A DNA stretch of 21,538 nucleotides from a virus. The stretch spans positions 1 to 21,538 of IMG/VR virus record IMGVR_UViG_3300009422_000061. One strand, written 5' to 3'. Made by a program: the position numbers and the translations under genes. The notes below the pieces were generated by a model, which did no database searches, was not told the origin of the DNA, and saw only the letters and a program-made list of their open reading frames with translations. Positions within the stretch are counted from its first letter, which is position 1. Every line of letters begins with the position of its first letter. Positions 906 to 19,277 of the stretch are shown one piece after another.

Positions 906-1316
906 TTAATTGGCTGCAACGCCTTTAGTTTTTTCAATAGTTCTTGCTGTTGTTAAGCCTAACATACCCATTAATAAAGGCAGCATGACCGTCATATCTA
1001 GTGGCTCCATGTTAATAGGAGTATAAGCTTCTACAACTGGCCCTGCCATTGGGATTACGACATAGTTAATCCCAAGTGCAAAGACAGTCAGCCACCCGCA
1101 GGCAGGCCGCCAGCCACCTTTAAACAGAGATTCACTAGAAGCCTCTGCTTTATTTATTTCTAATTGAGCTAATACTTGAATGTGGGCATTTTGTTCAGCC
1201 ATCGTAGCTATTTTGTACGCAATCTCGGCTTGTTTATCTTTGTCTACAATAAATTCAGACAGCAAATCAGACACAGGATCAACCAAAGAGCCTACAATAG
1301 AAGTAACAATGCTCAC
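906..1316 (-). CDS. Holin-like protein (3TM holin type)
   Basis: This 136-aa protein probably inserts in the host inner membrane to time lysis or release endolysin. Residues 1-60 are amphipathic and partly charged. A GGWRPACGW motif at 67-75 precedes a hydrophobic segment at about 74-93, and a second hydrophobic segment lies at about 106-124. The tail is short and positively charged. The GGWRP-x-x-GW signature followed by hydrophobic helices is typical of the three-TM holin family of phages and gene transfer agents. The start is GTG in a GTGA overlap with the tail-fibre stop, with GAGG upstream. No endolysin is visible in the window; it may lie beyond the left edge. The holin function is inferred from family resemblance. 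Confidence 0.75.
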   Translation of the reverse strand: MSIVTSIVGSLVDPVSDLLSEFIVDKDKQAEIAYKIATMAEQNAHIQVLAQLEINKAEASSESLFKGGWRPACGWLTVFALGINYVVIPMAGPVVEAYTPINMEPLDMTVMLPLLMGMLGLTTARTIEKTKGVAAN

Positions 1317-3109
1317 GCTTCTAACGCCTCAACTTTAGCTGTAAGTTCCTTAATAGACTCGACAAGCAGGCCAACCATGTTGCCATATCCTACAGCGAGG
1401 TAGCCGTCTTCGTCTTCAATGACAGCTTCGGGGAGTACGGCTTGTACTTCCTGTGCTATCAGACCAGTGGCTACTGCGCCGTTCTCGATGTACGAGAAGG
1501 TGATACCGTTGAGGGTGTTCACCTTAGCGAGTGCGCCAGTGATAGGCTCTACGTTCTCCTTCAGGCGTATGTCGGACACGTTGCCTGTAGTACCAGAGGA
1601 AGTCCAGTTGGCACCAGATGCCCTGAGCCAAGCTGTTGAAGACTCTATCTTTACGTCTCCTGCGCTGACAGCATTCCTAGCGCTGCCGGTGGCGTTTATG
1701 ACAATGCTGCCGGCAGCTTGAGTAGTCTGCCCAGCCCTGTTGCCGATAGCGATAGCGTTGAGTCCCTGAGTAGTCTGCCCAGCATACAGCCCTATGGCAA
1801 CAGCTTGTCCTTGTTGACCTGTGCTGCCAGCAGCGTTACCGATAGCTACGGCGTTGTTAAGCTGCCCTGAAGTAGCAGCAGACTTACCGATAGCGATAGA
1901 AGCGCCGCCCTGTGTCGTCTTTCCAGCAGCGCTTCCAATGGCTACTGAGTCTGAGCCTTGGTCTGAGTAGCCACATTGATAGCCTACAGCGATACCCTTT
2001 GCGCTTTGGCCTGAGTAGCCACATTGCGTACCTACAGCTACAGCGTTAGTCAGTTGTCCGGTATAGCCTGACCTGTAGCCAACAGCCGTAGAATTGTTGC
2101 CCTGTGTTGTCTTGCCAGCCTCGTAGCCCACAGCGACACAGTTATCTCCCTGTGTAGTTTGCCCCGCTGCGCGTCCGACAGCAACAGAGGCGTCTCCTTG
2201 GTCTGAATAGCCTGCCAAGTTACCAAAAGCAGAGGCGTTTATGGACTGATTAGAGTAACCTGCTCTCCTTCCGACAGCAACAGCGGTAGTGATCTGCCCT
2301 GTATAGCCTGCCTCATAGCCTATGGCTACGCACTCCACTCCTTGGGAAATATTTCCTGCCGAAGTGCCTATGGCTACTCCTTTAGAGCCTTGGGTTGTCT
2401 GTCCAGCACTGTTTCCGACAGCTACGCCATTTGCTCCTTGGGTAGTCTGACCCGCAAAGTATCCAATCGCTACAGCCTGCGCTGTCTGTGCAGTGAGGCC
2501 AGCTTGGTTGCCGATAGCAATTGATGAGCTTCCCTGTGTAGCATTCCCTGCGTTACTGCCTATAGCTATACTAGACCCTGCTTGGGTAGTCTCGCCTGCG
2601 TTCTTTCCTATAGCTACACTAGACCCGCCCTGAGTAGTTGCTCCAGCACTAGTACCAGCTCTGAAGCTGTCAGCGCCTGCGCCTGTGCTTAGTAAGCCAC
2701 CAGTGAACGTGTTAAGTCCTGTCCATGTGTTGTCTAGCGGAAGCAAATTATCATTGGCGGTTGATACTGTAAACCACTGCAATAAAACATTGTCCCATAT
2801 TTGAACGCCCGATGTCTGCCAGCGCATAACGTCTTGAGTTAAGATCGCCATACGAACATCACCGCTATCCTCTCTATACAGGCCAGAGGAAGTTTCATTT
2901 ACAAATGATGCAGAAGGTAATAATTTAGTGCCGTCAGCAAACCTGAAAGAAGCTAACATGCCCCCTCTGCCATAACGATCAAGAGAATCAGTCAGCGCAG
3001 TGCTAACATCATTAAGTGTGGTATTTGCCCAGCTAGACGATATAACCGTTCCACTAAGAACTGGGTTTCCTGCTACTAAAGTGTATGAGCCTGCTGCATC
3101 GCGTGGCAT
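1313..3109 (-). CDS. Tail fibre/spike with hexapeptide-like repeats and S74 chaperone domain
   Basis: This 598-aa protein is a probable host-recognition fibre. Residues 1-150 form an N-terminal region resembling fibre attachment and shaft segments (motifs RFADGT, SGLYRED). Residues 155-474 are twenty consecutive 16-residue repeats of the form AGxTTQGxxxVAIGxx. The AIGxxAG core is like the left-handed beta-roll of YadA-type trimeric adhesin heads. Residues 475-510 are a linker. The C-terminus has the peptidase S74 signature VSDIRLKEN, with the presumed Ser512/Lys517 dyad. It ends in a short coiled coil (LLVESIKELTAKVEALEA). S74 domains trimerise the fibre and then cut themselves off before the Ser. 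The start ATG is preceded by GGAG. The G+C is clearly higher than in neighbours, suggesting modular acquisition. The receptor is unknown. Confidence 0.88.
   Translation of the reverse strand: MPRDAAGSYTLVAGNPVLSGTVISSSWANTTLNDVSTALTDSLDRYGRGGMLASFRFADGTKLLPSASFVNETSSGLYREDSGDVRMAILTQDVMRWQTSGVQIWDNVLLQWFTVSTANDNLLPLDNTWTGLNTFTGGLLSTGAGADSFRAGTSAGATTQGGSSVAIGKNAGETTQAGSSIAIGSNAGNATQGSSSIAIGNQAGLTAQTAQAVAIGYFAGQTTQGANGVAVGNSAGQTTQGSKGVAIGTSAGNISQGVECVAIGYEAGYTGQITTAVAVGRRAGYSNQSINASAFGNLAGYSDQGDASVAVGRAAGQTTQGDNCVAVGYEAGKTTQGNNSTAVGYRSGYTGQLTNAVAVGTQCGYSGQSAKGIAVGYQCGYSDQGSDSVAIGSAAGKTTQGGASIAIGKSAATSGQLNNAVAIGNAAGSTGQQGQAVAIGLYAGQTTQGLNAIAIGNRAGQTTQAAGSIVINATGSARNAVSAGDVKIESSTAWLRASGANWTSSGTTGNVSDIRLKENVEPITGALAKVNTLNGITFSYIENGAVATGLIAQEVQAVLPEAVIEDEDGYLAVGYGNMVGLLVESIKELTAKVEALEA
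1688..2647 (-). repeat. Twenty tandem 48-bp units encoding 16-residue repeats
   Basis: Residues 155-474 of the tail fibre divide exactly into twenty 16-residue units without insertion or deletion. The consensus is roughly A-G-Q-T-T-Q-G-x-x-x-V-A-I-G-x-x. The DNA copies are diverged, so this looks like an old expansion kept by protein structure, not a recent slippage array. Variant units cluster: GY-S/T-x-Q versions at 267-314 and 347-394, and Cys in place of Ala at the start of units 363 and 379. Confidence 0.9.
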
Positions 3110-3154
3110 TACTTATTCTCCTGCGGCTTCTATAGCCATGTATTAAATTAGTTA

Positions 3155-4681
3155 CTAATATTCTTCTTCTGGTCTATTTGTAGAGCCTAATGCTGCTGGT
3201 CTTTTAAGGTAATCTGGAATTTTATCTAACTGTTGCGCTAAAGTTTTTTGAAGTCCAGTATTGCCGAGTACAGCATCGCCAGTTTTTTGTGCAAAAGGAA
3301 CAGCTAAACCTACACCTGCAATTCTTCGCATAAATGAAAGAGGGGCAGGATCGTCTGCACTTTTAGATATTTCTGCTATATCCATTACTAATTCTTGCAA
3401 TGGCCCTTGTCCATACCCAGCAGCGTCACCGCTTGATTGCAAAGAAGTTATTAACTCTTTTGAAGTAAACTCTCCCCTGTCTTTTAAAGATTTTTGAGCA
3501 GCACTTTTAGCAAGAAGATAACTTCCATATTGAGCGTCTACTGCTTGTAATTTGTCAAAAACACCACTTGGCGCACCATCACGCAAAGTAGTTCTAAGTT
3601 GTTTTAAAATTTCTTGATAATCATAATCATCTAAGGCTGCGTTAATGCGTTTTCTTAAAACATTGTCTAACGCTTTAAATTTTTCTGGTGTTATATCAGT
3701 AGTTAATTCGGCAAAATCTGTAACAATATTATCTAATTGTTTTTGTTGAGCTTCTGGGACTCTATTTTTTGCAGCATCTACTACATCTACAAATCTAACT
3801 CTTGCTGTGTTGCTTATAGCCGTAGCTCCTTTCCACGCATCCTCATAAGCTTCTTCAAAACCTTGTTTTAATTCAGCTATACCTAATACGCCAGATTGAG
3901 AAACTCTTTTATTAGGAGCAGTAGCCCCTTTGTAAACTAATTCAGCAGTTTCTTTTAACGCTCTTTCTTCTGCTTTTCTTACACTAGGAGCCATAACAGG
4001 AGTAACTTCTGCAATAGACTGCAAAGCTTTTAAAATTTTATTGTTAGAAGCTTGTCCAGGAGTTAAATAAGCACCAGCATCCATAATCCTGCGACCTGCA
4101 TCACTTACATTTATACCTCTTACTGCTTTTGAAAGCACTTTCCCCGCAAGTTCGCCTCCAAGTGCGCCTATAGCAGCACTTTCTGCATTACCTGCTCTTG
4201 TTTCTCCTATATCAGGGGCTTGTGATGCCGCTAATCCCGTTCCAATAACGCCATCAACACCCGCAGTAACAAGTGCTTTTGCTTTTTTGCTAGCCTCTAT
4301 TGCTTGCATAGCGTTTTTTGTTTTTCCTGCTACTTTTGCTGCTTTTAAAAGCGCACCTCCAGGAGCTATAATCTGGCCTAGCTCACCTACAACTTGTCCC
4401 GCAGTTCCCCAACCGCTTTGCCCTGCATCTTGTCTCCAATCTTCAAGTTGAGCATTAGCATTTTCAGCAGGAATGCCAGCAAGATCACGAACGCCATGAT
4501 AAGTTTCAAGACCTGATAAACCTATACCTTCACCAAAATCTTCATACCAAGGTTCTTCTTTTCTGTTTTTAGTTTGTAATTCTCTAACTTTAAGAGCAAC
4601 TTCTTCATTTGTTGCTCCTTCTGGCCCTTTAATTTTTACAACAGTTCCATCTGGAGCTTTCATGCTATAAACAACACTCAT
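3155..4681 (-). CDS. Probable internal virion/DNA-ejection protein
   Basis: I choose ATG at 4681, giving 508 aa. It overlaps the upstream stop as ATGA and has GGGAG eight bases before it. An in-frame TTG at 4696 would add five residues but has less support. Residues 1-35 carry a small domain seen at the N-terminus of many phage virion proteins (APDGTVVKIKGPEGAT). A region containing Trp, Tyr and Phe follows (EPWYEDFGEGIG). Long Ala/Gly-rich and charged helical stretches cover about 80-200 and 230-400. There is no signal peptide and no recognisable catalytic motif. The helical, Ala-rich composition and the position between nozzle and fibre genes fit an ejection protein that travels with the DNA. 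The exact family is not recognised. Confidence 0.6.
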   Translation of the reverse strand: MSVVYSMKAPDGTVVKIKGPEGATNEEVALKVRELQTKNRKEEPWYEDFGEGIGLSGLETYHGVRDLAGIPAENANAQLEDWRQDAGQSGWGTAGQVVGELGQIIAPGGALLKAAKVAGKTKNAMQAIEASKKAKALVTAGVDGVIGTGLAASQAPDIGETRAGNAESAAIGALGGELAGKVLSKAVRGINVSDAGRRIMDAGAYLTPGQASNNKILKALQSIAEVTPVMAPSVRKAEERALKETAELVYKGATAPNKRVSQSGVLGIAELKQGFEEAYEDAWKGATAISNTARVRFVDVVDAAKNRVPEAQQKQLDNIVTDFAELTTDITPEKFKALDNVLRKRINAALDDYDYQEILKQLRTTLRDGAPSGVFDKLQAVDAQYGSYLLAKSAAQKSLKDRGEFTSKELITSLQSSGDAAGYGQGPLQELVMDIAEISKSADDPAPLSFMRRIAGVGLAVPFAQKTGDAVLGNTGLQKTLAQQLDKIPDYLKRPAALGSTNRPEEEY

Positions 4682-6066
4682 GGCACTAACTCCCAACCAG
4701 CTTCTTCAGAAGACAAAGCATTTCTAACATTACTAAAAATAGGGTCATTTTTTAATTTATTATATTTTTCAAATCCTTTTTCGTATGCGTCCATCATTTC
4801 TGCTTGTGCTTGTGCAGCCATTTCTTCTCCTTTAGCTCCAGGATTGTATTGTTTTATTTTTGCTATAAGAGTTGGCATCCATTGCGTTTTATACCATCTA
4901 TACATTGAGGCAGGTTCGTTAGAGCGACTAGGTGATGCTTCCATAGCAATAGCTAAATCTTTATCAGTAGGGTTTATACCTAATTTTGCTAATATTGGCC
5001 CTGCCGCTTCTAAACTAACATTAGTCATTTGCATTCCAGTTGCTTGTTCTTCCTCCAAGCCAAATATTGGAGCCATATAATCAGTTGCTATTTTTTTAGG
5101 ATCATAAAAAGGCCCACTTGCTGCCATCATTTGTTCTGGCTGACCTAGCAAATCAGTTGCCACATCGTTTGTTATTAAAGTCTGTGTCTGTGTCGCTTCC
5201 CGTTCTTCAGTTGTTTCAATTTCTTTAGGAGTAGGCGGTTTAGAAGTATTTTGACTTCCATAAACTACTTCTGTTAAACCTGGAAGCACATCTTTAACAA
5301 AAGCTTCTGGCATTAACTCATTTGAAGTTGAATAATAATTTCCATGCCCATCTTGTTGCATATTAAGAATATCAACTCCTCCTTCTTCATTTGGCACATA
5401 ATACGCTACATCATTTCTTTTCATTTTTAATTTTTTGAATGCCTCAGAGTTTTCCCCTGCACTTACGCCAGCAGCCACTTTAGCTGCTTCAACATCACGG
5501 TCATTTTCAACTGTTGCCGCTGTTATTTTAGCTAATTCTCCTGCTTCAAAATTTGATTGAGCTTGCTCTGCAAGGCTGGCTTCTAAAGCTAACGCTGCTT
5601 CTTCTTCTGCTGCTTCTGCTGACAATACCAAGCCAGCTTGCTCAGTCACATCTACGTCTAGCTGTTCAGCATCTTTCCTTGCCTGACCTTCTAAATAGCC
5701 GCCTACAAGCTGATTAGTTACGCCCTCTAACTGCTCACCCCAGTTAGGCTGTGTTAGTGTAGCCCATCTGCCTTCTCCTACCATTCTAGCTTGAGGCATA
5801 CCTTTACCTCTTAGACTTGCAGCTCTAGCTCTTTGTGAGGCTATGTTAGATTCTTGGCCTTTAAATGACCTCGCCATAGCTTCAGCATTTTCTCTTTCTG
5901 ATTGAGCTTTTGCTGCATCCACATAGCCACTCACCATACCTGAAGTTGTTCCTGCGTTCACAGCCTGTTGGCCTACATTTGCAAGGGTAGGATTAGCTGC
6001 GCCTGTATACGCATTGTTACTTCGCGTAATAGCTGCAAGCATTCTTTGTCTTTCTAGCTCAGTCAC
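4678..6066 (-). CDS. Probable internal virion protein, Ala/Glu-rich, helical
   Basis: This is a 462-aa protein of unrecognised family. It starts at GTG (6066), one base after the previous stop, with GGAGAA upstream. Residues 1-130 are polar and helical. Residues 135-215 are a strongly Ala/Glu-rich segment of coiled-coil character (EAAEEEAALALEASLAEQAQ). Residues 220-260 form a more globular, Tyr-containing patch. The C-terminal part is again helical, with Met/Ala/Glu. There are no membrane segments, cysteines or catalytic motifs. Its place between two other presumed ejection proteins, and the ATGA overlap with the next gene, suggest it is part of the injected internal protein set. That role is inferred only from position and composition. 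Confidence 0.5.
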   Translation of the reverse strand: MTELERQRMLAAITRSNNAYTGAANPTLANVGQQAVNAGTTSGMVSGYVDAAKAQSERENAEAMARSFKGQESNIASQRARAASLRGKGMPQARMVGEGRWATLTQPNWGEQLEGVTNQLVGGYLEGQARKDAEQLDVDVTEQAGLVLSAEAAEEEAALALEASLAEQAQSNFEAGELAKITAATVENDRDVEAAKVAAGVSAGENSEAFKKLKMKRNDVAYYVPNEEGGVDILNMQQDGHGNYYSTSNELMPEAFVKDVLPGLTEVVYGSQNTSKPPTPKEIETTEEREATQTQTLITNDVATDLLGQPEQMMAASGPFYDPKKIATDYMAPIFGLEEEQATGMQMTNVSLEAAGPILAKLGINPTDKDLAIAMEASPSRSNEPASMYRWYKTQWMPTLIAKIKQYNPGAKGEEMAAQAQAEMMDAYEKGFEKYNKLKNDPIFSNVRNALSSEEAGWELVP

Positions 6067-6067
6067 T

Positions 6068-7231
6068 TTATTCTCCTAGCAATGCGCCATAATTAACGGC
6101 CTTTAATCCACCGAAATCTATGGTGTATTTTTCAGGAATTTCATCTGCCATAACACCTTCATGCGCGGAACCATCATATTTTAAATTGTAGCTATACCAA
6201 GGATAGCCTTTGTTAGTTCCAATGCGTTTAATATTATATTTTAACCTGCGGTCAGAAACTTTTGCCGCCGCAACTGTACCCGCTGCGTTAATTAATGCGT
6301 TAGTAGGATCAGCGGCCGCATCAGCATTAGCCTGTGCTACACCACTTCCTATAATATCAGCAGGTTGTGCAACTCCAGCCTGAGCAAAACTAGGCATTTG
6401 AGGCATTCCAACTTGTTGCCCGCTTAACAACGCATTGATTTCATTAAGCTCAAATCCTCGTAACTGCATTGCTTCAGTAAGTTGCTGCTGACGTATTTGA
6501 TTAGAATACTGGCTTTGAGTCATTGCCTGATTAAAGTTTTGATTATTAGCTCCTATAGCCTGATTGTATCTGTTCTGTTGCTGACCCATCATTTGATTAT
6601 ACATTTGTGAAGATTCAGCCATTCCAGCTTGATTAGCACTCCACAAGGCTTGATTATTTTGATCGTTAAATTGTTGTCCTTGACTTTGTATCTGATTTTG
6701 CCATGCTGCATCTCCAGGTTTTAATCCCTGATTCCGCATTTTCATTTCTAAAGAACCTCTTTGAGATTCTTGTTGAGGGGCAATGCGAGACATAGCCTGC
6801 CCATATACGGCATCTTCAGCAGCTTGACGAGTTCCGTAAGCATTGCCAATGTCAGGCTCAGTCAAGGTAAAATCTGTTTGAGGCGCATAAGCTATATCTT
6901 GAACGCCTCTTAATTCCATTGGTGTGCCAAACGTACTTCCCATACGTCCTGTAAGCATTCCAGCAATATCCGTTCTGCCGCCTTGAATAGCTACTTGCTT
7001 GTTATATATGTCCTGAAGCTCAGGACTTAAAGCCATAGTATTTGCCCAATTAGTAACTGCCTCCCCAGTAGCAGGATCAATTCCAGCAGTAGCTTCCCAA
7101 GCACTGGCTCCCCACGGAGTATATTGCGTAGGGCGATTAGCATAAATCTGATTGCGAATTACGGCCTCGTTTTCTTCGCCTTGGCCTGCCGCAAGCGCAC
7201 CAAAATCTGGCATATTATTTTTTCCACCCAT
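6068..7231 (-). CDS. Virion protein with short C-terminal S74-type chaperone domain
   Basis: This is a 387-aa protein. The N-terminal ~130 residues are mixed. Residues 145-260 are very rich in Gln, Asn and Met, as in phage internal or tail proteins with extended helices. An Ala-rich spacer covers 285-325. The C-terminus has the S74 hallmark SDRRLKYNI, with Ser326 and Lys331 in the expected dyad spacing, followed by YPWYSYNLKYDG and HEGVMADEIPE. The whole domain is only about 62 residues, shorter than usual fibre S74 domains (roughly 100 or more). It may be a reduced form that promotes oligomerisation, perhaps with self-cleavage. The start ATG lies one base after the upstream stop and has GGAGAA. 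The first six residues, MGGKNN, are the same as in the Hint protein at the left edge. Confidence 0.72.
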   Translation of the reverse strand: MGGKNNMPDFGALAAGQGEENEAVIRNQIYANRPTQYTPWGASAWEATAGIDPATGEAVTNWANTMALSPELQDIYNKQVAIQGGRTDIAGMLTGRMGSTFGTPMELRGVQDIAYAPQTDFTLTEPDIGNAYGTRQAAEDAVYGQAMSRIAPQQESQRGSLEMKMRNQGLKPGDAAWQNQIQSQGQQFNDQNNQALWSANQAGMAESSQMYNQMMGQQQNRYNQAIGANNQNFNQAMTQSQYSNQIRQQQLTEAMQLRGFELNEINALLSGQQVGMPQMPSFAQAGVAQPADIIGSGVAQANADAAADPTNALINAAGTVAAAKVSDRRLKYNIKRIGTNKGYPWYSYNLKYDGSAHEGVMADEIPEKYTIDFGGLKAVNYGALLGE

Positions 7232-7232
7232 G

Positions 7233-8843
7233 TTATTCTCCGCTTGCCGCTACGTTAGTATAATTGTTGCCCCATCCAATAGGATTAGCATATCCTGATG
7301 GAGCTTGTGGCCCTGTGCCGCTTCCAATATAAAGATTGTTCATAATTTTAGTTAAAAATGGCTTGTTGTCAGCCCCCAAACTAGAACCAAAACCCTGAAT
7401 AAAATCATTAGGGTTATTTTGTCTTGCCCAGTTAAAAGCGTCAGAAGGATTATTCCCATTGGCATCTGTCTGGCTCCAGTTTGTTATTTTTTCTTGATCG
7501 GCTTTACTGCTAAAAGCAGCAAGCGAGCTTAACGAGTTTAATATTCCTAAATTGCTAGTGTCTCTTGTAAAGCCTTGTCTAAGTTTAAACGTCTGAGGAG
7601 GTGGCTCTCCTCCGCCCATTGTAACGGTAGGCAATCCTTTCCCGTTATTTGCCCAGCTCCAATCATTTTCGCCAGCCATCCAATTTTCATAAGGATTACT
7701 TTCTGCTTCGTATGCGGCTCTTTGACTATTACGCTGCCTGTTTAAAAACCCTTGTTGCTCGCGCATGTAATTAGCAGTTTGTTGCTGATAAAATTCATCA
7801 TTTCCGCCTTGGATATTAGGCATTCCCCAAGGAGTATCTTGGCCTGGTTGATAGCGTTCAAAGGCTTGATAATCTGTATCATAGCCTCCCCACATCCTAT
7901 CTCCGGGAGTTTTTTCTCTAAAATAATCCCAGTCCCATGATGTGTCTGCGGGAGGATTTCCTTCTAAAAATTCGCCATCTCCCGTAGGCGGAGGTACGTT
8001 ATCGTATGAGACGGTAGGATAGACAGGAAAAGTAGGAATAGGCGGCGGCACATAAGGTGGCGGTTGCCCTGTAGGAGGGCCGCCTGTAGGAGGGCCGCCT
8101 GTAGGAGGTTGACCTGTAGGAGGCTGACCTGTAGGAGGCTGACCTGTAGGAGGCTGAACTGGTGTTTGATTTGAAGGAGGCAAAGCTATATACCCATCAT
8201 GCTCACCTGTTGGATTGTCCAACTTTATTGTTGTAGATGCTGAAGGCAATATCCCCAGCACAAATTTTCCAAGATGATTAGTATAGTATCCTGTTATTCC
8301 ATTTCCAGGTCTAAAATCATTTCCTCCTACTCCAGAAGTGCTTCCAGGATCAGAAAAGCTTTGGAACTCTCCTGTTTCTGGGTTCCAAAGAGTCCATCCT
8401 TTATTATTGTCCCATGCCCCACTTGTTTGCCCCTCAAGAGCAAAATTATTTTCGTTTGGGCTTACCAGCGAATAAGGAGACATATCAATAGGATCACGAA
8501 ATCCAACACCAGTTGAAGGCTCCGAACCTCGGCCTATGTTGTTAGGGCCAGAAGGAGTTCCGCCAGTTGCTGCATTGCCTACTAGTACAGCTCTGTCGGC
8601 AGCATTTTCATCTGGATTGGCAAATGTTCCATCTTCTACTCTGGCTAAGGCCGCCTTACGAACTTTAACAAATAATGCTGTTTGTTTTTTAGCGCTCCCA
8701 ATGTTTTCATTCAGCCACTGCTGCCCAGCTTGTATTTGTTCAGAGGTAAAACCACTTCTATCTTCTGCCCTAGCAATAACATGAGCAGCTTGTTCAGCAT
8801 TACTCATATTACCCCAAGTTTTACCTGTTACTTGCGATTTCAT
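7233..8843 (-). CDS. Unknown tail/virion protein with proline-rich tandem repeat
   Basis: This 536-aa protein belongs to no family I recognise. Residues 1-75 look like a helical domain (EQAAHVIARAEDRSG, WLNENIG). Residues 85-225 are Gly/Asn/Pro-rich with aromatic residues, suggesting loops or beta structure. Residues 231-260 are six PPTGx repeats followed by PPPYVPPPIP, a rigid linker. Residues 280-420 are rich in Trp, Tyr, Asp and Gly (TSWDWDYF, MWGGYD, NDWSWANNG). The C-terminus is Asn/Gly/Ser-rich. The start overlaps the GNAT-like gene stop as TAATG. The position between nozzle and ejection genes suggests a virion component; no enzymatic motif is visible. Confidence 0.6.
   Translation of the reverse strand: MKSQVTGKTWGNMSNAEQAAHVIARAEDRSGFTSEQIQAGQQWLNENIGSAKKQTALFVKVRKAALARVEDGTFANPDENAADRAVLVGNAATGGTPSGPNNIGRGSEPSTGVGFRDPIDMSPYSLVSPNENNFALEGQTSGAWDNNKGWTLWNPETGEFQSFSDPGSTSGVGGNDFRPGNGITGYYTNHLGKFVLGILPSASTTIKLDNPTGEHDGYIALPPSNQTPVQPPTGQPPTGQPPTGQPPTGGPPTGGPPTGQPPPYVPPPIPTFPVYPTVSYDNVPPPTGDGEFLEGNPPADTSWDWDYFREKTPGDRMWGGYDTDYQAFERYQPGQDTPWGMPNIQGGNDEFYQQQTANYMREQQGFLNRQRNSQRAAYEAESNPYENWMAGENDWSWANNGKGLPTVTMGGGEPPPQTFKLRQGFTRDTSNLGILNSLSSLAAFSSKADQEKITNWSQTDANGNNPSDAFNWARQNNPNDFIQGFGSSLGADNKPFLTKIMNNLYIGSGTGPQAPSGYANPIGWGNNYTNVAASGE
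8064..8153 (-). repeat. Six 15-bp repeats encoding PPTGx
   Basis: Six in-frame 15-base units encode PPTGQ or PPTGG in residues 231-260 of the preceding entry's protein. The units are nearly identical in DNA (plus strand core cctgtaggagg), which points to recent slippage or unequal recombination. A length change in steps of 15 bases would keep the frame. Confidence 0.9.
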
Positions 8844-9286
8844 TATGCTGCTTCCTTTTGTTCTATGCGTTTAGGCAGCCAAGGATTATTTTCTCTCGAC
8901 ATGCGTATTATTATATAGTCTACACCTTCTGCGTATCCGTCAGGAATTCGAGCAACTTCTTCAAAACCCATTTTTAAATCAAAATCATAAGCTTTTTTAT
9001 TGCCAGCAGGGACTGTTCCAAAAACATATTTGCGGTCACACGTTACATGAATATGAAAAAAAGCTTCTCGCAACAGTCCTGCTCGTATACACATAGGGTT
9101 ATCAATGGCTATATGAGCCTGACACCCTGATTTAGTCCAACTATCCATAACAACAATGCCAGAAATAACACCTGTAGCCTCATTGTAAGCAACTAATCCT
9201 TGAGAATCTTCGACTCTCATTGGAGAAGCTCTTTTTGCCATCCAGTCCCATTCAGTTTGATCGGTTAAAGGCTTAAATTTTATCAT
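8843..9286 (-). CDS. GNAT-like acetyltransferase homologue in virion cluster
   Basis: This 147-aa protein has the layout of a small GNAT fold. A central strand lies at VISGIVVMDSW. A C-terminal half with VPAGNKKAYDFDLKMGFEEV matches the GNAT pattern in which an Asn/Lys-containing helix is followed by GF. The end is YIIIRMSREN. The usual Q/R-x-x-G-x-G/A acetyl-CoA loop is not clear, so activity is uncertain. Similar proteins (GNxxAxxFxxKxGFxxxxRIPDG) are often found between tail genes of short-tailed phages. The gene overlaps both neighbours by one base (TAATG junctions), which argues for fixed co-expression with the nozzle and Pro-rich protein. It could modify virion proteins or a host target, or be a structural derivative; nothing here decides this. 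Confidence 0.7.
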   Translation of the reverse strand: MIKFKPLTDQTEWDWMAKRASPMRVEDSQGLVAYNEATGVISGIVVMDSWTKSGCQAHIAIDNPMCIRAGLLREAFFHIHVTCDRKYVFGTVPAGNKKAYDFDLKMGFEEVARIPDGYAEGVDYIIIRMSRENNPWLPKRIEQKEAA

Positions 9287-11700
9287 TATAAATAACCTCC
9301 AACATTAAATAATACGTCCCAGCCTACTATATTAATCCGAGTGCTTGCACTGCCTGACATGCCTACAGCAAAAGATCGTCCTATGCCTAAATTTCCAGAA
9401 ATAAAAGATTTCCCTTTTAAACTAAAATCCCATAAATCTGAATCCCATACAGCGCTGTCCCAAACAGTTGCTCCTAATGCTGCCGTAACAGGCGGAGGTG
9501 ATATATATTCTTCAAGATTATAATCATAAACAGCTTTTACTGTCAGAGATGCAGTGCCAGCAATTAACCCTATTGTTCTTATAAAGCCAACGCGAGTAAA
9601 ATTAGAATGCCCAGCAGGGGCTTGGAAACTAGTTAAACACCTAAAATTAATAGGCGATCCAGCAAAAGACGTTTTACGCAAACTAACGTCATAAAATGTG
9701 CCTGTAAAATTCTCATCGCCCACAAGAGCCATTTGTGTATTAGTTTGTGTTGAAGTAAAAGTAGAAGTAAATAACCCGCTTCCAGAAATAGGGCTATCCA
9801 TAACCTCTGTGCCAATAGAAATTGAATGTTTTCCTGCTCCATCATAAAGAGCCGCTTTAATATTTCCAACTAATCCACTAAAACTAGAATCTCCTACTAT
9901 GCTTATAGTAGAAATGTCAGTAAGAGGAACAAAAGTAGAAGAATAACTATTATCTCCAGAGCTAAAAGGAGTAACAATTTCTGTCCCTGCTAATAATTTA
10001 TAAGTTCCTACGGCAAGTCCAACTTCAAAAGAAATTGAATATCGCTCGCCCGCCTTTAAGTCCGAAACAAGATTAACTTGGTAAGTCGTTTCGGCTATTT
10101 GAGTGCCGTCACAAGCAATTATTAAGCCAACTACACTCCATTCTGCGCCAGGAGGAACAGTGGGAACATTTTGCCACAGATTAATTAAAGGATTTGCTTT
10201 TATTCTATAAGAAATACTATAGCTAGTGTCTGAAACAATAGCAGTAGCTAAGTCTGTTTGATATTGGGTTTCAGCAATTTGGCTTCCATCACACTGAAAT
10301 TCAAGAGCAACAGGAACAGTCCAAGGTGCTGGAGCTGCTGGATTTGGAACATTTTGAAATTTATTGTCATTGTCAATTTCTGTGCCATCTACAGTGCCGT
10401 CATTAATGTAAACAACACCATCTGGGCCGCCCATTATGTAATCACCGCCCAAAGAATCAGCACTAAATATTGGCACACTTTCCCAGAATCCCCAAGCGCC
10501 TGTCTGAGTATTCATATTGTATTGAATATAAGGTGTTGAGCTTGGTTTAGGCGTTATGATTTGAAGAAATCCATCAGAAGGATTAACAACCATCTGCCAT
10601 GAAGGAGATGCATTACCTTGCTTAACATCTGCCCTTAAAAATCTGCTTATTTTTCTAGAAGGCATGTTCCCCGACAAGGGTTCGCCGCGCAATAAGTTAT
10701 TAAGCGATACAAGGCCATAAGTTGATAACACATACAAATCAGGGCCATAATCAACGGCAACCCTTCGACTGTTGGGTGTCTGGCCTATAAACCAATTTCC
10801 TTTTGTACTCCAAGGTGTGCCTCCTGTTGGAGTAATTTCTGGGTCTTCACCTTGATAAATAATAACATCACCACCACGGCCAATAGCAACCATCATGTCA
10901 TCAACGCCAATTCCACTATCTACAGTCCAAGTAAATAACCCCTGCAAGTTTCCACCATGAGGCATTTTAGACCCAAAGTTAAACTTAGTTAATTGCCCAG
11001 ATATTGAAGCAACAGGCAAATACCAAGCATCATCTTCATCTTCAAGAATTACCCAGATGCGCTGTTTAAACACCATGACAAAAGCCACGTTATCCACAGG
11101 AAATGGCTGTTCTACTGGAGGGTCTTGATTGTCGAGGTAATGCCATTCCCCCGCCCCAGTGCCAGAGATAGGCTGCGTCCATACATCAGTGGCTTCTTCA
11201 TACTGCCAAATGCCATTTAAACCGTCAGCATAGAATAAATAATGCCCTCTAAGTCCTGCTCCAGCAGCATCGCCTGTAAACTCAGCCCATACTCCGTACC
11301 CTGAAGGATCAGAAGTCTGTACAAATGTTGCTTTTCTAACAGGAGTATTAGTGTTAAATAGCGTTACGTCCCAGATTCCTTCTGCTGTAACGCCAAAAAT
11401 ACGGTTGTTGGCTTGATCTTGTATATTGGATTCAAAAGGGATAATTGTTCTAACATCGTTATTAACTGCTGAATCAACAACACAGCCTGTAGCCCACTCC
11501 CGATAGCCTTGACGAAGCCTCATGCCATATTCGCTAGGCATTAGGTTATAAGTGTATATTGCGTCTTCTGGCGGCATTAGCAGCAAAGAATCAAGAGCAT
11601 TGATGCCCCCTACTGCTGCGGGAAAGGTGTAGCTAGTAACAGTTGGCTGGGCAAGTTGATTACCGTAGCGACCTAATGTTGTCTTACGCTGATAAGTCAT
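9286..11700 (-). CDS. Tail nozzle / DNA-stabilisation-like protein with duplicated insert
   Basis: This 804-aa protein is a probable tail tube/nozzle component below the adaptor. The N-terminus has the family pattern FPAAVGGINALDSLLLMPPEDA (residues 26-47), followed by RLRQGYREWATG. Beta-rich segments with repeated Gly/Trp follow, consistent with a propeller-like body. Residues about 455-680 look inserted: they contain two related units beginning CDGSQIAET (470) and CDGTQIAET (530). Two later related strands are IVGDSSFSG (601) and LVGDENFTG (659), resembling beta-sandwich carbohydrate-binding modules. The core resumes with SFQAPAGHSNFTRVGFIRTI (691-710), a conserved motif of this family. The C-terminus is Trp/Asp-rich (TVWDSAVWDSDLWDF). 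The start ATG lacks a strong ribosome site and may be coupled to a 14-codon frame just upstream. Confidence 0.72.
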   Translation of the reverse strand: MTYQRKTTLGRYGNQLAQPTVTSYTFPAAVGGINALDSLLLMPPEDAIYTYNLMPSEYGMRLRQGYREWATGCVVDSAVNNDVRTIIPFESNIQDQANNRIFGVTAEGIWDVTLFNTNTPVRKATFVQTSDPSGYGVWAEFTGDAAGAGLRGHYLFYADGLNGIWQYEEATDVWTQPISGTGAGEWHYLDNQDPPVEQPFPVDNVAFVMVFKQRIWVILEDEDDAWYLPVASISGQLTKFNFGSKMPHGGNLQGLFTWTVDSGIGVDDMMVAIGRGGDVIIYQGEDPEITPTGGTPWSTKGNWFIGQTPNSRRVAVDYGPDLYVLSTYGLVSLNNLLRGEPLSGNMPSRKISRFLRADVKQGNASPSWQMVVNPSDGFLQIITPKPSSTPYIQYNMNTQTGAWGFWESVPIFSADSLGGDYIMGGPDGVVYINDGTVDGTEIDNDNKFQNVPNPAAPAPWTVPVALEFQCDGSQIAETQYQTDLATAIVSDTSYSISYRIKANPLINLWQNVPTVPPGAEWSVVGLIIACDGTQIAETTYQVNLVSDLKAGERYSISFEVGLAVGTYKLLAGTEIVTPFSSGDNSYSSTFVPLTDISTISIVGDSSFSGLVGNIKAALYDGAGKHSISIGTEVMDSPISGSGLFTSTFTSTQTNTQMALVGDENFTGTFYDVSLRKTSFAGSPINFRCLTSFQAPAGHSNFTRVGFIRTIGLIAGTASLTVKAVYDYNLEEYISPPPVTAALGATVWDSAVWDSDLWDFSLKGKSFISGNLGIGRSFAVGMSGSASTRINIVGWDVLFNVGGYL

Positions 11701-11741
11701 ATAAAAACCATTGACAAAACAACTAGCTGTTTTAAAAACAT
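11697..11741 (-). other. Possible 14-codon coupling micro-ORF
   Basis: An ATG follows the adaptor stop directly (TAAATG), and the frame encodes 14 mostly hydrophobic residues (MFLKQLVVLSMVFI). It ends in TGA overlapping the nozzle gene start as ATGA. GGGG lies just upstream of the ATG, whereas the nozzle ATG has no clear ribosome site. This fits translational coupling but could be chance in AT-rich DNA. Confidence 0.2.
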
Positions 11742-12476
11742 TTAAGCCCCAAACCCAGTATCGCCAGTATTTCCATAAGGAGTTATATAGCGCATTCCTC
11801 TGGAGCCATAAGAAGCATTAAGAACTTGTGCGCCTGTAGATTTACCAATTCTTCCGCCAAGCAACGTATCAAATTCCATTGCAGCAGCAGAATAATCAAA
11901 TCCTTTAGCTTGTAAAAACTTTAATTTTAAAAACTTAATAGACAACAAAGGGTCAAGGCAGCAAACATTAGTCCCAGAATTTATGGTATCTCTAGTTGCA
12001 GTGTCTGCCCCTTGTTCTTTTAACCAACTTCTACTAACGTATTCAAAGCTAATATCTAAGCCGTCAGGCGGAGGATTAGGAAATAAATCAAATTTGCCAT
12101 CTAACTGCCGAAAACAAGCGTAGATAGTTTTATTAAATAGATTTCGCCCTTTAAGATATGTCCATTCTTGAGCAGACAAAGGGCCGCCAATAGGCAGCCT
12201 TCGTGTCTTGTCCCAACCTGTCTGATCTATCATGTAATTAAAATCATCAGGCAAGTCATAAGAGCCAGTGTCAGCGCTTGTAGTAAGAATAGAATAGGTC
12301 TTTATTAATATAGGCCAATCATTTAACTCGCACAGCTCTTGCCCAGAAGAATTTAATAACCCGACCATTTGGATAAATGTATCGCCCGTATCTGATGCTG
12401 GGTCTTCAGAGGGCAATAATCCCATCTCAACCGCAGCTCGGTTGATAATAGTATTCACTTCCAAATATCGGGCCAT
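11742..12476 (-). CDS. Head-tail adaptor (P22 gp4 / tubular A-like)
   Basis: This 244-aa protein probably forms a ring joining the portal to the tail nozzle. It has the helical N-terminus typical of such adaptors (YLEVNTIINRAAVEMGL), then LNDWPILIK at about 52-60 and the pattern YDLPDDFNYMIDQTGWD at about 74-90. This is followed by RRLPIGGPLSAQEWTYLKG. These SYxLPxDF, TxWD and GPxSxQEW features are shared by the adaptor/tail accessory proteins of short-tailed phages. The gene lies right upstream of the nozzle gene, the usual order. The ATG has AAGGAA before it. No unusual feature. Confidence 0.72.
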   Translation of the reverse strand: MARYLEVNTIINRAAVEMGLLPSEDPASDTGDTFIQMVGLLNSSGQELCELNDWPILIKTYSILTTSADTGSYDLPDDFNYMIDQTGWDKTRRLPIGGPLSAQEWTYLKGRNLFNKTIYACFRQLDGKFDLFPNPPPDGLDISFEYVSRSWLKEQGADTATRDTINSGTNVCCLDPLLSIKFLKLKFLQAKGFDYSAAAMEFDTLLGGRIGKSTGAQVLNASYGSRGMRYITPYGNTGDTGFGA

Positions 12477-12479
12477 TTT

Positions 12480-13088
12480 TTATTCCTTTAGTGGTGTTTC
12501 AGCTTTTTTAGGGCGGCCACGCTTAGAAGAAGGTTTTTCTGGAGCATTGTCTTCAAGAGCTTTAAGACGCTCTAACAGCTCTGCGTTAATATCGCGCTGT
12601 TCAGCTAACGCTTCACTTGCTAGCCCTTCTTTAGCGTTGTCTAAATACTTCTGAGCTTTTTCTTTTAAAGCGTATACGCCTCTAATATTTTGAGCATTTA
12701 CATCGCTCATAGCAACAAGCTGCTCTAATGTTAAAACGTGCATAAACTTTAGTTCTTCTACCTGAGAACCTTGTATAGCAGGCCATTCAGACAAAGGCGT
12801 TCCTTCTACAACGTCTTGGTTTTCCCTTGCTTGAAAGTTTCTCCAATGTTGAGGAAATCGATGCTTGTCAGCTTCACGGGCAGGACGCTCAACAACACTA
12901 TCCCTGTTTCCAGGAGACATAATTTTAATATAAGGAACGTCCTCATAAATTGGCCTACCTGCTTCTTTAGATTTAGGAAGGCTATGACGGGCAAAAGTAT
13001 AAAACTTTACTACCAGTGTTTCATCGCCAGCGTTTGATCCTCGATTCATTGCTAAATCGGTTTGTCCGTAATCTGCTTCATTTAACAT
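12480..13088 (-). CDS. Conserved head-associated protein with C-terminal AT-hook-like motif
   Basis: This 202-aa protein is of a type common near capsid genes in short-tailed phages. The middle has RPIYEDVPYIKIMSPGNRDS (45-64), FPQHWRNFQA (78-87) and GTPLSEWPAI (96-105). A helical segment follows, LKFMHVLTLEQLVAMSD (113-129), resembling a helix-hairpin-type fold. A charged coiled coil covers about 150-180. The end is basic, SSKRGRPKKAE (187-197), with RGRP as the core of an AT-hook that could bind the DNA minor groove. It might contact packaged DNA inside the head; this is inference from the motif and location. The leader holds a hairpin (13107-13124) and the ribosome site is weak (AAGGCG). 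Confidence 0.6.
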   Translation of the reverse strand: MLNEADYGQTDLAMNRGSNAGDETLVVKFYTFARHSLPKSKEAGRPIYEDVPYIKIMSPGNRDSVVERPAREADKHRFPQHWRNFQARENQDVVEGTPLSEWPAIQGSQVEELKFMHVLTLEQLVAMSDVNAQNIRGVYALKEKAQKYLDNAKEGLASEALAEQRDINAELLERLKALEDNAPEKPSSKRGRPKKAETPLKE

Positions 13089-13106
13089 AGTTTTCGCCTT
13101 TTAGTT

Positions 13107-13124
13107 AAACCCTCTGCGGGGTTT
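13107..13124. other. Hairpin before the head-associated gene
   Basis: AAACCC (13107-13112) pairs with GGGTTT (13119-13124) across a 6-base loop. The T-run follows on the plus strand, so it would be a better terminator for plus-strand transcripts. On the minus strand it lies in the leader of the 202-aa gene and may instead affect mRNA stability or ribosome access. Confidence 0.4.
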
Positions 13125-13132
13125 TGAGTAAA

Positions 13133-13146
13133 GGGGCAAATGCCCC
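13133..13146 (-). terminator. GC-rich hairpin downstream of second decoration-like gene
   Basis: GGGGCAAATGCCCC is a perfect 6-bp stem with a 2-base loop, seven bases past the stop of the 13154-13669 gene. On the minus strand it is followed by TTTACTC, only a short U-run. It may be a weak terminator or an RNA-processing or 3'-protecting element. The same core stem occurs after the capsid gene at 14230-14251. Confidence 0.45.
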
Positions 13147-13153
13147 AGTATTT

Positions 13154-13669
13154 TTAAGGTACTGCTACCCAGCCAGCACCTAATGTAGCTAAAGTGGCAT
13201 TGCCCGTTGAAACAGGAGCTGCGCCTTCAACAGGAGCGCCTTCTACATTATCAGGATTTGTTGCAGCATTAATTGAGCCAAATTGCATATAACCACTAGC
13301 ATCTCCGCCAGAACTTGCCGCACCAGCAGGAGTATAAAGAGCTTGAGTTGTATCCCATGTTGTCGCTACGTTTCCAGTTCTAGAAACATTAGCATAACAC
13401 CCAACAGGACATGCTCCTTGAGGCGTTCTTGGCACAAGAATCGATGGCGCAAAAATATTATATCGTTGCTGTAATAGTGTCCAGTTATAACCAATACTAT
13501 TTTTGCCCGTAACTTCAGGCAAAGAACCTCCGCCTATATTAATCCCAATGCCAGAATTATTTCCAGCATTAGGATTGGCTCCATTATACCACTGAGCATT
13601 AGGCGTTCTGGCTCTTGCTGCATCTCCACCTTGAATGGCAGAAGAATAAAAGTATGTTGCATTAGGCAT
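13154..13669 (-). CDS. Decoration-like capsid protein, paralogue 2
   Basis: This 171-aa protein is rich in Gly, Asn, Ala and Thr, without charged helices, as in beta-rich head decoration proteins. It shares with its upstream neighbour the patterns GIGxxxGGxLPxxTGxNxIG, NWTLL, GNVATTWDTTQ, LYTPxGAASSGG, INxATN and a C-terminal LGxGWVxV. This shows duplication and divergence. A two-Cys segment (ACPVGCYANV, about 87-96) is absent from the neighbour. The start ATG has AAGGA nine bases before it. Its place straight after the major capsid gene fits a head surface or spike protein; the family itself is not named. Confidence 0.6.
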   Translation of the reverse strand: MPNATYFYSSAIQGGDAARARTPNAQWYNGANPNAGNNSGIGINIGGGSLPEVTGKNSIGYNWTLLQQRYNIFAPSILVPRTPQGACPVGCYANVSRTGNVATTWDTTQALYTPAGAASSGGDASGYMQFGSINAATNPDNVEGAPVEGAAPVSTGNATLATLGAGWVAVP

Positions 13670-13681
13670 AAGCTATTTTCC

Positions 13682-14188
13682 TTATACTGAAACCCAGCCT
13701 GTACCTAGTGCCGCCAAATGTGCTTGACCGTCAATAGTAGGGTAAGCATCGTAAACAGGAGCATCGCTTACATCAGCTTGGTTAGTAGCAGTATTAATAG
13801 ACATTAATGGCGAAACAGCACTGCCATTGCCAGAAATTCCACCAGAGCTTGCTGCGCCTTCAGGCGTGTACAAGACTTGAGTCGTATCCCAAGTTGTTGC
13901 TACATTTCCGCTTCTTGGCACAAAACCTACTCCACCAATTACTTGTGATACTTGAGGAGTTCTAGCTGCTGCTTCTTGGTCTAACAGCGTCCAGTTCATG
14001 CCAATGCCATTAAAACCTGTTTTTGCTGGTAAAGCTCCGCCAGCAACGTCAATTCCAAGACCGTGAGCATTAGAAGCTGCTGCGTTACCGCCTGACTCCC
14101 AAACTACTTGTGTAATTCCCGTTTCTGTCTGCCTGGAACCAGCAGAAGTTAAATCGTCAAAAAATGTAGGACTTGCGTTATATGACAT
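13682..14188 (-). CDS. Decoration-like capsid protein, paralogue 1
   Basis: I place the start at ATG 14188 (168 aa), which has GGAG six bases upstream. A longer frame from TTG at 14200 would place the start inside that ribosome site. The protein is Gly/Ala/Thr/Asn-rich and related to the next gene through the shared core GNVATTWDTTQ and LYTPxGAASSGG and the same C-terminal LGTGWVSV. It has no cysteine and no membrane segment. It follows the major capsid gene across a spacer with two hairpins. A role as head decoration or stabilising protein is inferred from position and composition. Confidence 0.6.
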   Translation of the reverse strand: MSYNASPTFFDDLTSAGSRQTETGITQVVWESGGNAAASNAHGLGIDVAGGALPAKTGFNGIGMNWTLLDQEAAARTPQVSQVIGGVGFVPRSGNVATTWDTTQVLYTPEGAASSGGISGNGSAVSPLMSINTATNQADVSDAPVYDAYPTIDGQAHLAALGTGWVSV

Positions 14189-14204
14189 ATATTTCTCCAA
14201 AAAG

Positions 14205-16775: not shown

Positions 16776-18946
16776 TATTCCTTTTCCTTTAGCCGAGCTT
16801 GAGTATACATTTCGTCCATGTTGTATTCATGGTTTACTTCTTGCGAGGCTATATCAAAACGAGCCTGAGCTTCCTCGACAGCAATGTTTGCTTGCATGTT
16901 AGCTTGTATCTCAGACATAGAAGCTTGCATCTCACGCGCTATTTCCATCAGCCTGTTCTGAGTTTGTTTTTCTGCAAGAGTCATATCTCTTTCAGAATCC
17001 ATCTGCATTTTTTGCATTTCGCCCTGAATTTTCATTTGCTGAGTTTGAATATCAGCCTGAGACTTAGCTTGTATCTTAGCCAGCTCGCCCTGCTGCTTAA
17101 CTTGCGCTCCCTGCAACTTCATTTGCTCAATCTGCATTTTTAGTTGTTCTGGGCTTGGGCCTTTATTCTCGCCTTCTGGAGGCGATTTCTTAGCAATCTC
17201 AATAGCATGATCCAAAGTTCCTTCAAGGTATTCTGCTCCTTTATAACCAGCAAGGCTCCATTTCATCAGCTCCATTAAGATTGGAAGTGAACCTGGAATA
17301 GCTTGAGCAGCACCAGAAGCGGCCTGAATGTACTGAGACATAGCCATTAAAAACTCTGACCTTTCTGATTGAATTTGAGCATAATCAACCATAGCAATAG
17401 ATTCTGGGCGTATTTGAACGCGCCATCTAATATCTTCGCTTTGCATTAGATCAAGAGCAGGAGCAACTTTTGGCTTGTCATATTCAGGCAAAAAACCTGC
17501 ATTAGACTGAGTAACAATGCTTTCTTTGCTAAAATGTTTAGAAATTATTTCAGCTTTAAGTCCTTCAAGATCACTGGCAAACCGAGCAAATTCCTCTTGT
17601 AAGGCTTGAATGCCAATACTACCCATCTTGGCTTTTATAGCCTGAGTGCCACCAGAAGTATACTGATCTGTATTCGCGCCACGCATAATGTCGCTCATGC
17701 CTGTTATTTCATATAACTGTTCTACTTTAGTTTGCTGCACAGCTTGTAGGGTCTGAAGAACGCCAACAATTTCTTGAACGGGAAACCATTGAATAACGCC
17801 TTGCAATCCGCCTTTTTCAGCAAACATGGCCCAGTTATCAACAGGTATTAAATCATTTTCAACGCCTTCTTTTAGCATACGCCCTGCCGAATCTCCAGCA
17901 GACTTGTCATATACGCCAACAACTTTAATTGCGCGAGTAATAACGGCAATACGCCCTTGAAGCTCATCAATCTCATTATATAAATCTTGAGCAAAAAGAA
18001 AGTCGGCTTTAGGCAAAAACATTGTAGTTGTGGGGTTTGCCACCATAGGGCGGGGCATAGGCCAAAATCCTTCTAATTCAAGAGGATCATCACGCATATC
18101 TAGGATCAAATCAGCTCCCTGAGAGAACCAATACACCTTTTTAGTCTTTTTTTCCCAGATTTCCCAAATTTCAGCCTTTTGAATGTTATCTTTTTGCTCT
18201 GGGTCGCTATTACTGCTTGATTTTCTATCGCCATCGGCAGTTTGATTTTTATACTCGATATTCTTGGCTATTTGCTCGCCAAAACGCTCTGTAACTTCAT
18301 CTTTTGTCATCCAACTGCGAAAAGCCCACCAAGGTATCTCTTTCCATGTTCTACCCCAGCCCCAACAAACATCCTGCCAGTGAACATAGTCAATACAAGC
18401 ACTTTCGTAGTCTAAAACTTCAATTTCTTCCATTTGCATGGTTTGAGGATTAAGATTTATTTCTGTTGTTGTATTTACTTCATAACGAACCCGCGCAGTA
18501 CCCATTCCAGGCAACAATCTGTCTTGTAAAGAAGCTTTAAGGACAGTTGATAAGTCTTCGCCACTAGGCTCAATGTCATTTTCTAGCATTCTTTGAAACA
18601 TTAACGATGCTACTCGCGCAATATCGTCATCAGGATCAGAATGCTCACGGCTTACTTCAACAGAAGGAGTGTTTCCGTAAAGCATTGCTAATGTTGTGCT
18701 AATATTTTTGTGAAACAAGTTAAGAGTTGCCCCTCCTCGCAACGCATCATAAGACAAGTCTATTTGTCCCTGTCGATCATCAAGGTATCGGCTAACAACT
18801 TGAGCGCCTTGTTTTTTATAGCGCCTTAGTCGTTTTTCACAGGCATCCATTTCTTTTTGCCAGTGTTGATGCCACTGTGCTGGAGATTTTTCCTTTTTAG
18901 GGGAAGCCATTTCAACAACAGTGGTTTCTTCTATATTAATATCCAC
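16775..18946 (-). CDS. Portal protein with long coiled-coil C-terminus
   Basis: The protein is 723 aa with a GTG start at 18946 that overlaps the previous gene by 11 bases (AGGGA about eight bases upstream). An internal ATG at 18907 would remove 13 residues and is a weaker alternative. The portal forms the dodecameric DNA gate of the head. The N-terminal helical region (WQKEMDACEKRLRRYKKQG) is followed by NLFHKNISTTLAMLYGNTP, a motif of P22-type and related portals. Then come the wing and stem regions, with GVYDKSAGDSAGR and DIMRGANTDQYTSGGTQAIK. The last ~120 residues are Gln/Met/Ala-rich coiled coil, like a portal barrel. The length fits the large-portal families of short-tailed phages. Confidence 0.87.
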   Translation of the reverse strand: MDINIEETTVVEMASPKKEKSPAQWHQHWQKEMDACEKRLRRYKKQGAQVVSRYLDDRQGQIDLSYDALRGGATLNLFHKNISTTLAMLYGNTPSVEVSREHSDPDDDIARVASLMFQRMLENDIEPSGEDLSTVLKASLQDRLLPGMGTARVRYEVNTTTEINLNPQTMQMEEIEVLDYESACIDYVHWQDVCWGWGRTWKEIPWWAFRSWMTKDEVTERFGEQIAKNIEYKNQTADGDRKSSSNSDPEQKDNIQKAEIWEIWEKKTKKVYWFSQGADLILDMRDDPLELEGFWPMPRPMVANPTTTMFLPKADFLFAQDLYNEIDELQGRIAVITRAIKVVGVYDKSAGDSAGRMLKEGVENDLIPVDNWAMFAEKGGLQGVIQWFPVQEIVGVLQTLQAVQQTKVEQLYEITGMSDIMRGANTDQYTSGGTQAIKAKMGSIGIQALQEEFARFASDLEGLKAEIISKHFSKESIVTQSNAGFLPEYDKPKVAPALDLMQSEDIRWRVQIRPESIAMVDYAQIQSERSEFLMAMSQYIQAASGAAQAIPGSLPILMELMKWSLAGYKGAEYLEGTLDHAIEIAKKSPPEGENKGPSPEQLKMQIEQMKLQGAQVKQQGELAKIQAKSQADIQTQQMKIQGEMQKMQMDSERDMTLAEKQTQNRLMEIAREMQASMSEIQANMQANIAVEEAQARFDIASQEVNHEYNMDEMYTQARLKEKE

Positions 18947-19277
18947 TAGGCATTCCCTGTGGAGGCATTTGCGGAGGCATCTGCCCTTGTGGTGGCATTT
19001 GCGGAGGCATTTGCCCTTGTGGTGGACCTTGACGCATAGCTTGCGCTTGCATCATTTGAGCAAGCATTGGGTCAATCTGCGGTTGAGCAGGGTCTTGTCC
19101 CATAGGCGGCCCAGGCATCATTGTGCCATCAGGCATCATGTGCATAGGAGGCATTTCTGCTGACTGAGGAGGCTGTCCTTGAGGCTGTCCTTGAGGTTGT
19201 CCTTGAGGCGGCATCATTTGAGGAGCCTGAGGAGGCATTCCTTGTGGTGGCATTCCTTGTGGGTGCATTCCGTTCAT
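18936..19277 (-). CDS. Low-complexity Pro/Gln/Met-rich protein
   Basis: This 113-aa protein is made mostly of Pro, Gln, Met and Gly, with repeated PPQG and QMPPQMPPQG units. A short helical segment is seen at PQIDPMLAQMMQAQAMRQ (about 67-84). There are no charged or hydrophobic domains, so it is probably disordered. The ATG has AGGAT seven bases upstream, which supports translation. It lies between large terminase and portal and overlaps the portal start, so it may assist portal or packaging steps, or simply keep the portal coupled. The plus-strand frame opposite it (18921-19163) is a shadow. Confidence 0.6.
   Translation of the reverse strand: MNGMHPQGMPPQGMPPQAPQMMPPQGQPQGQPQGQPPQSAEMPPMHMMPDGTMMPGPPMGQDPAQPQIDPMLAQMMQAQAMRQGPPQGQMPPQMPPQGQMPPQMPPQGMPSGY
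18966..19025 (-). repeat. Two 30-bp tandem copies in low-complexity gene
   Basis: Bases 18966-18995 and 18996-19025 differ at one position only and encode the repeated MPPQMPPQGQ unit at the C-terminal end of the Pro/Gln/Met-rich protein. The near identity suggests a recent duplication. Confidence 0.85.

Follow-up and report, generated by a model that had tools for sequence, protein, structure and literature searches.

In a viral contig fragment from IMG/VR of 21,538 bases, called here the window, we found a tail-fibre gene whose repetitive shaft and C-terminal folding chaperone, to judge from sequence comparisons, travel together as a single exchanged cassette behind a conserved virion anchor. 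This mosaicism is a more interesting fact than the array of twenty 16-residue repeats in the shaft itself. Our preferred interpretation, which we hold to be probable, is that of a trimeric, Mx8-like podovirus-type fibre made of a conserved anchor, a swappable YadA-like β-roll rod and a self-cleaving S74 chaperone.

Domain layout of the tail fibre

The fibre is encoded on the minus strand at window positions 1313–3109 as an open reading frame of 598 amino acids, recognized by its S74 domain, by PHROG tail and long tail fibre families and by its N-terminal homology to the fibre of phage Mx9. Only one Pfam domain scores above its cut-off, Peptidase_S74 (PF13884) at residues 512–563 (E 3.2e-17; 63 bits against a curated cut-off of 22), while the PHROG matches of the fibre are nearly all tail fibres, and the array by itself matches phrog_4636, “tail spike protein”, with an E-value of 8.5e-13. 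The sequence-only reading of this DNA had already named the gene a tail fibre, and the S74 chaperone, the Mx8/Mx9-like anchor and the PHROG tail families all agree with that name.

The N-terminal virion-anchor module comprises residues 1–115 (positions 2765–3109, minus strand) and is delimited by homology to the Mx9 fibre and to a sister contig described below. It has 74 relatives in IMG/VR and shares 48.5% amino acid identity with the Mx9 “putative tail fiber protein” over residues 3–101; with the fibres of Mx8 (p64) and Mx9 taken together, identity is 46–49% over the same residues, but the homology stops past the anchor, at query residue 101. The portal protein of the window is also nearest to that of Myxococcus phage Mx8, with 39–40% identity to Mx8/Mx9. 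Next come a linker and N-terminal lead-in at residues 116–154 (NTWTGLNTFTGG...LLSTGAGADSFRAG; positions 2648–2764, minus strand), common to the fibre of contigs L001/L003 although the N-terminus of the latter differs, and then the array, behind which residues 476–511 (positions 1577–1684, minus strand) form a short segment that, from its position, may be the distal tip of the mature fibre and that is modelled by AF2 with low confidence.

At the C-terminus lies a Peptidase_S74 intramolecular chaperone (residues 512–598; positions 1316–1576, minus strand), assigned by PF13884, by its SDIRLK motif and by its identity to the L001/L003 domain. The domain opens with SDIRLK, which places Lys517 five residues after Ser512, and in the S74 family a Ser/Lys catalytic dyad with this same spacing drives self-cleavage of the fibre at the serine (PMC3742440). 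The following gene (positions 906–1316, minus strand) encodes a holin with three transmembrane segments (Pfam GTA_holin_3TM; PHROG holin) and is the downstream limit of the segment that was exchanged. The S74 domain, the Mx8/Mx9-like anchor, the PHROG matches and the holin neighbour thus lead to a layout of anchor, linker, repeat rod, short tip and removable chaperone, and these homologies make the gene a tail fibre of the podovirus type, of a kind that is ordinary for phages.

Exchange of shaft and chaperone

The exchange was found by comparison with a sister phage contig (L012/L093), which has 83–89% DNA identity to the window over most of positions 5.6–15.3 kb. This sister keeps fibre residues 1–115 with 86.9% DNA identity (window 2766–3153), whereupon the homology stops, to resume only at window position 1348 with the holin gene, kept at 84.7% identity; between anchor and holin, from 2766 to 1348, the shaft of L012 is unrelated and its S74 domain is a different one. 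The base composition also steps at the module edge, from 42–47% GC in the anchor to 52–57% in the rod and chaperone, and the GC3 of the chaperone is 0.56 versus 0.16–0.39 for the other genes of the window.

Relatives of either end of the fibre were also surveyed. Among the 42 anchor relatives with complete open reading frames over 200 amino acids, none has the array and five have the S74 signature; their distal parts are unrelated to that of the window, the S74 domain excepted, and all these distal parts, with the window's included, form 23 clusters in which the window's stands alone in its own. The array was found in only two of the best 80 S74 relatives, namely, the contigs L001 and L003, which hold the same fibre twice. 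The S74 domain of this nearest array relative has 94.5% DNA identity to that of the window, with 11 synonymous and 2 non-synonymous changes in 79 codons, and the array type, lead-in and closing motif are also the same; however, its N-terminus is unrelated, its array has 11 units, one of them stretched to 18 residues, and its fibre gene does not adjoin a holin. The window's fibre therefore shares with the known S74 (endosialidase-type) chaperone fibres the C-terminal PF13884 domain, the Ser/Lys pair at +5, the tail-fibre context and the modular exchange, and differs from most of them in its shaft.

Such exchange of host-recognition modules has been reported for marine phages (PMC10579305; PMC3909814), and the fibre of a pelagiphage carries a C-terminal YadA domain (PMC3909814). 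Immediately upstream of the fibre, the gene at window 3155–4696 (minus strand) is replaced in L012 too, with an open frame of 947 amino acids there versus 513 here, so the exchanged stretch may exceed the fibre.

The 16-residue array

Period and core-spacing analysis divides residues 155–474 (positions 1688–2647, minus strand) into exactly twenty units of 16 residues without any indel, as the sequence-only reading had proposed with exact coordinates, and at period 16 the self-identity of the array reaches 0.49, whereas none of 300 shuffles exceeded 0.19, whatever the period. The array is confirmed as real. Its consensus unit is AG-x-T-T-Q-G-x-x-[SA]-[VI]-A-[IV]-G-x-x, in which Gln6 is present in all 20 units and Gly2, Ala12 and Gly14 in 19 each, and a core of the SVAIG type occurs once per unit. 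Around this constant core, positions 3, 5, 7–9 and 15–16 differ freely between units, and the loops are mostly of small polar residues, with only 20 Asp, Glu, Lys or Arg in the 320 residues.

Unit 20 departs from the consensus because the array closes there with a conserved motif, SIVINATG (residues 468–475; positions 1685–1708, minus strand), with the unit itself finishing in SIVINAT. Among the array-bearing IMG/VR relatives examined, the pattern [ST][IVL]x[ILVF]N[AS][TS] terminates every array (L001, L002, both arrays of L004, L005, L006 and L008).

Predicted fold of the array

When a profile made from the array and its relatives was run against the PDB, it found only the heads of YadA (1p9h, E 1.4e-5) and EibD (2xqh, E 0.0048); the reversed-profile control found no adhesin but gave one spurious match at E 5e-7, and the E-values of the array profile are consequently not trustworthy. 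It is telling that both forward matches are YadA-type heads, and the kinship with the YadA-like β-roll put forward by the earlier reading is plausible. With the Pfam model YadA_head (PF05658), the window's array gives 10.6 bits and its best single match 13.9 bits, below the cut-off of 25, which the relatives L004, L005 and L002 pass. The left-handed parallel β-roll heads of YadA and EibD share with the array the SVAIG core once per layer, but solved β-rolls have layers of 14 residues, or 15 in UspA1 (PMC9543794), versus 16 in all 20 units of the window, and among solved structures we identified none with a 16-residue layer. The fibre also differs from the trimeric autotransporter adhesins in that Pfam finds no C-terminal YadA membrane anchor in it, its C-terminus being the S74 domain.

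In the AF2 model of units 1–10, a strand falls on each VAI, every 16 residues, with pLDDT of 63–82 over units 1–8, and the full-length model has the same strand phase along all 20 units with low confidence; these are monomeric models of modest confidence at best, and their input alignment itself has a period of 16. Among predicted viral structures, the best matches to the array model reach a TM-score of 0.90 (query-normalised) with 51% identity, and the top two are entries without a protein name; others are named FhaB-like adhesion (Bodo saltans virus) and glycoprotein repeat (Qinghai Lake virophage), a further one is the protein of Tenacibaculum phage pT24, and some with weak E-values bear the names LbR_YadA-like and YadA-like head. 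Foldseek gave no significant match in the PDB for either the array model or the low-confidence full-length model.

Twenty layers of the BpaC β-roll rise 81.5 Å (PMC9543794), and hence the twenty units would make a rod of only about 8–9 nm, which disposes of the long fibre or rod first imagined for them. Most likely, the array forms a trimeric YadA-like β-roll of about this length. More tentatively, and with the balance somewhat against it, the 16-residue unit could be a β-roll layer widened by two residues over that of YadA, thereby defining a distinct subtype of trimeric roll with its own closing motif and no solved structure.

The same repeat type in other viruses

The earlier reading had regarded the strict 16-residue phase as special, a claim that the relatives contradict. 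Exact 16-residue core spacing is also present in the IMG/VR phages L004, L005/L006 and L008, and the cultured Tenacibaculum phage pT24 has unbroken runs of 18, 16 and 11 exactly 16-spaced cores in a single giant open reading frame; therefore, the strict phase belongs to the repeat type and not to the phage of the window, and its uniqueness is rejected. Arrays of the same type and phase exist in other viruses, and the repeat itself is no surprise. The stretched unit of L001/L003 and the units of 22–24 residues that break up the 16-mers of L002 indicate that insertions in the turns are tolerated. In L002 (positions 3–1448), the array is unusually rich in Cys and Tyr, and its three enlarged units resemble loop insertions.

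The pT24 protein (YP_009876745.1, “chlorovirus glyco repeat domain-containing”; L170, positions 4633–13539) has exact-16 runs and [AG]xGxx[AS]G-type cores as in the window, but its units carry N-[TS]-G where those of the window carry T-T-Q-G, and it is a giant frame of about 3,200 amino acids with several separate long arrays. It is named for PF06598, although the Pfam model gives no match there; for the window, membership of this chlorovirus glycoprotein repeat family was rejected because Pfam finds no match either. The putative widened-layer subtype would be widespread, in a reading that we hold just as tentatively as the subtype itself, both in phages and in the large DNA viruses that infect algae and protists, and [ST][IV]x[IL]NA[TS]G would be its motif. 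A scan of bacterial genomes with residues 139–598 found no relatives, and we found no literature on 16-residue YadA-like arrays in phages.

Evolution of the array and alternative readings

Between units, codons for the same amino acid are identical at a rate of 0.393, versus 0.357 expected from codon usage; synonymous sites are therefore near saturation, and the array is old and without recent homogenisation, so that recent concerted evolution of the units is rejected. The same numbers bear on whether the exact phase could be a mere by-product of a recent tandem duplication of a 48-bp unit instead of a constraint of the fold. Adjacent units do resemble each other a little more than they would in permuted orders (p = 0.005 for protein, 0.015 for DNA), and 75% of DNA positions are identical between units 1 and 2, as such a duplication would leave them; however, the codons are nearly saturated while the protein core is kept, which favours selection on the fold, and the relatives keep the phase of 16 across strongly diverged sequence, and we consider this origin of the phase very improbable. 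The similarity of neighbours is also what is left of the alternation of unit types in blocks noted in the sequence-only reading: at most a trace exists, since duplication of blocks of three to five units shows no excess over permuted unit order (p about 0.5–0.86). One five-unit (240-nt) block duplication, hinted at by repeat spacings and by units 8 and 13, was likewise not significant against permuted unit order.

The units could also fold as another solenoid, such as a right-handed β-helix or a pentapeptide-like quadrilateral helix, and a second-look structural aligner in fact pairs the model with right-handed β-helices and pentapeptide-repeat proteins at Z of 5–7, values below 8 being common by chance for repeat proteins; its list has no YadA chain, an absence that excludes nothing. 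The fibres of PBCV-1, including Vp260, are right-handed parallel β-helix trimers near the capsid (PMC9617893). Against this, the YadA_head model accepts sequence relatives of the array, and heads of the YadA type are all that the array profile finds, and we hold another solenoid to be unlikely. More credible, but still less so than a display surface, is that the array serves only as a spacer, a stiff rod setting the distance between tail and cell, with the 36-residue tip (476–511) or another protein doing the binding. The number of units varies among relatives, 20 here versus 11 in L001 when repeat numbers were compared as the earlier reading had proposed, the loops carry few charges, and a short unmatched segment separates the array from the chaperone, all of which would suit a spacer, whereas a rod of only 8–9 nm suits it less, and variable positions around a fixed core are what is expected of an exposed display surface.

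Other genes in the window

Several further genes, all on the minus strand, deserve mention. The gene at 1–894, cut by the contig end, encodes a Gln/Asn/Pro-rich N-terminus followed, from residue 204 on, by a domain of the Hint type (intein/hedgehog/pretoxin-HINT), and its start, MGGKNN, is common to the gene at 6068–7231. The latter encodes a virion structural protein (phrog_6121) with SDRRLK at residue 326 and an S74-like C-terminus of 18.8 bits, below the cut-off of 22, so that a chaperone-like end occurs a second time, here in a gene other than a fibre gene. Two adjacent small paralogues (13154–13669 and 13682–14200), which directly follow the major capsid gene on its downstream side, share GG[SA]LP..TG.N.IG.NWTLL and found no match in a PHROG search. 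Between portal and terminase lies a low-complexity Pro/Gln/Met frame (18936–19277) with PPQGMPPQ repeats and 54% GC.

Proposed fibre and its significance

In the anchor–roll–chaperone fibre that we favour, residues 1–115 would attach the fibre to the tail, and the twenty units, each contributing one layer, would stack into a β-roll rod akin to the YadA head of bacterial adhesins, on which the residues of the variable loops would point outwards and be open to contact with a host receptor. The SIVINATG turn would terminate the rod, and the C-terminal S74 domain would trimerise it, fold it from its end and then cut itself off before Ser512, leaving residues 1–511 on the virion. Phages swap shaft and chaperone as one cassette, presumably through recombination in the interval from the anchor to the holin gene. 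Of this picture, the geometry of the repeats, the order of the domains, the conserved Ser/Lys pair and the swap of the distal module are established, and the trimer, the roll, the cleavage and the receptor contact are inferred.

Read in this way, the window offers a clean case of a whole receptor-binding cassette, shaft together with folding chaperone, swapped between otherwise syntenic phages, and its compact and regular 16-residue array is a target for solving the fold of a widespread viral repeat.
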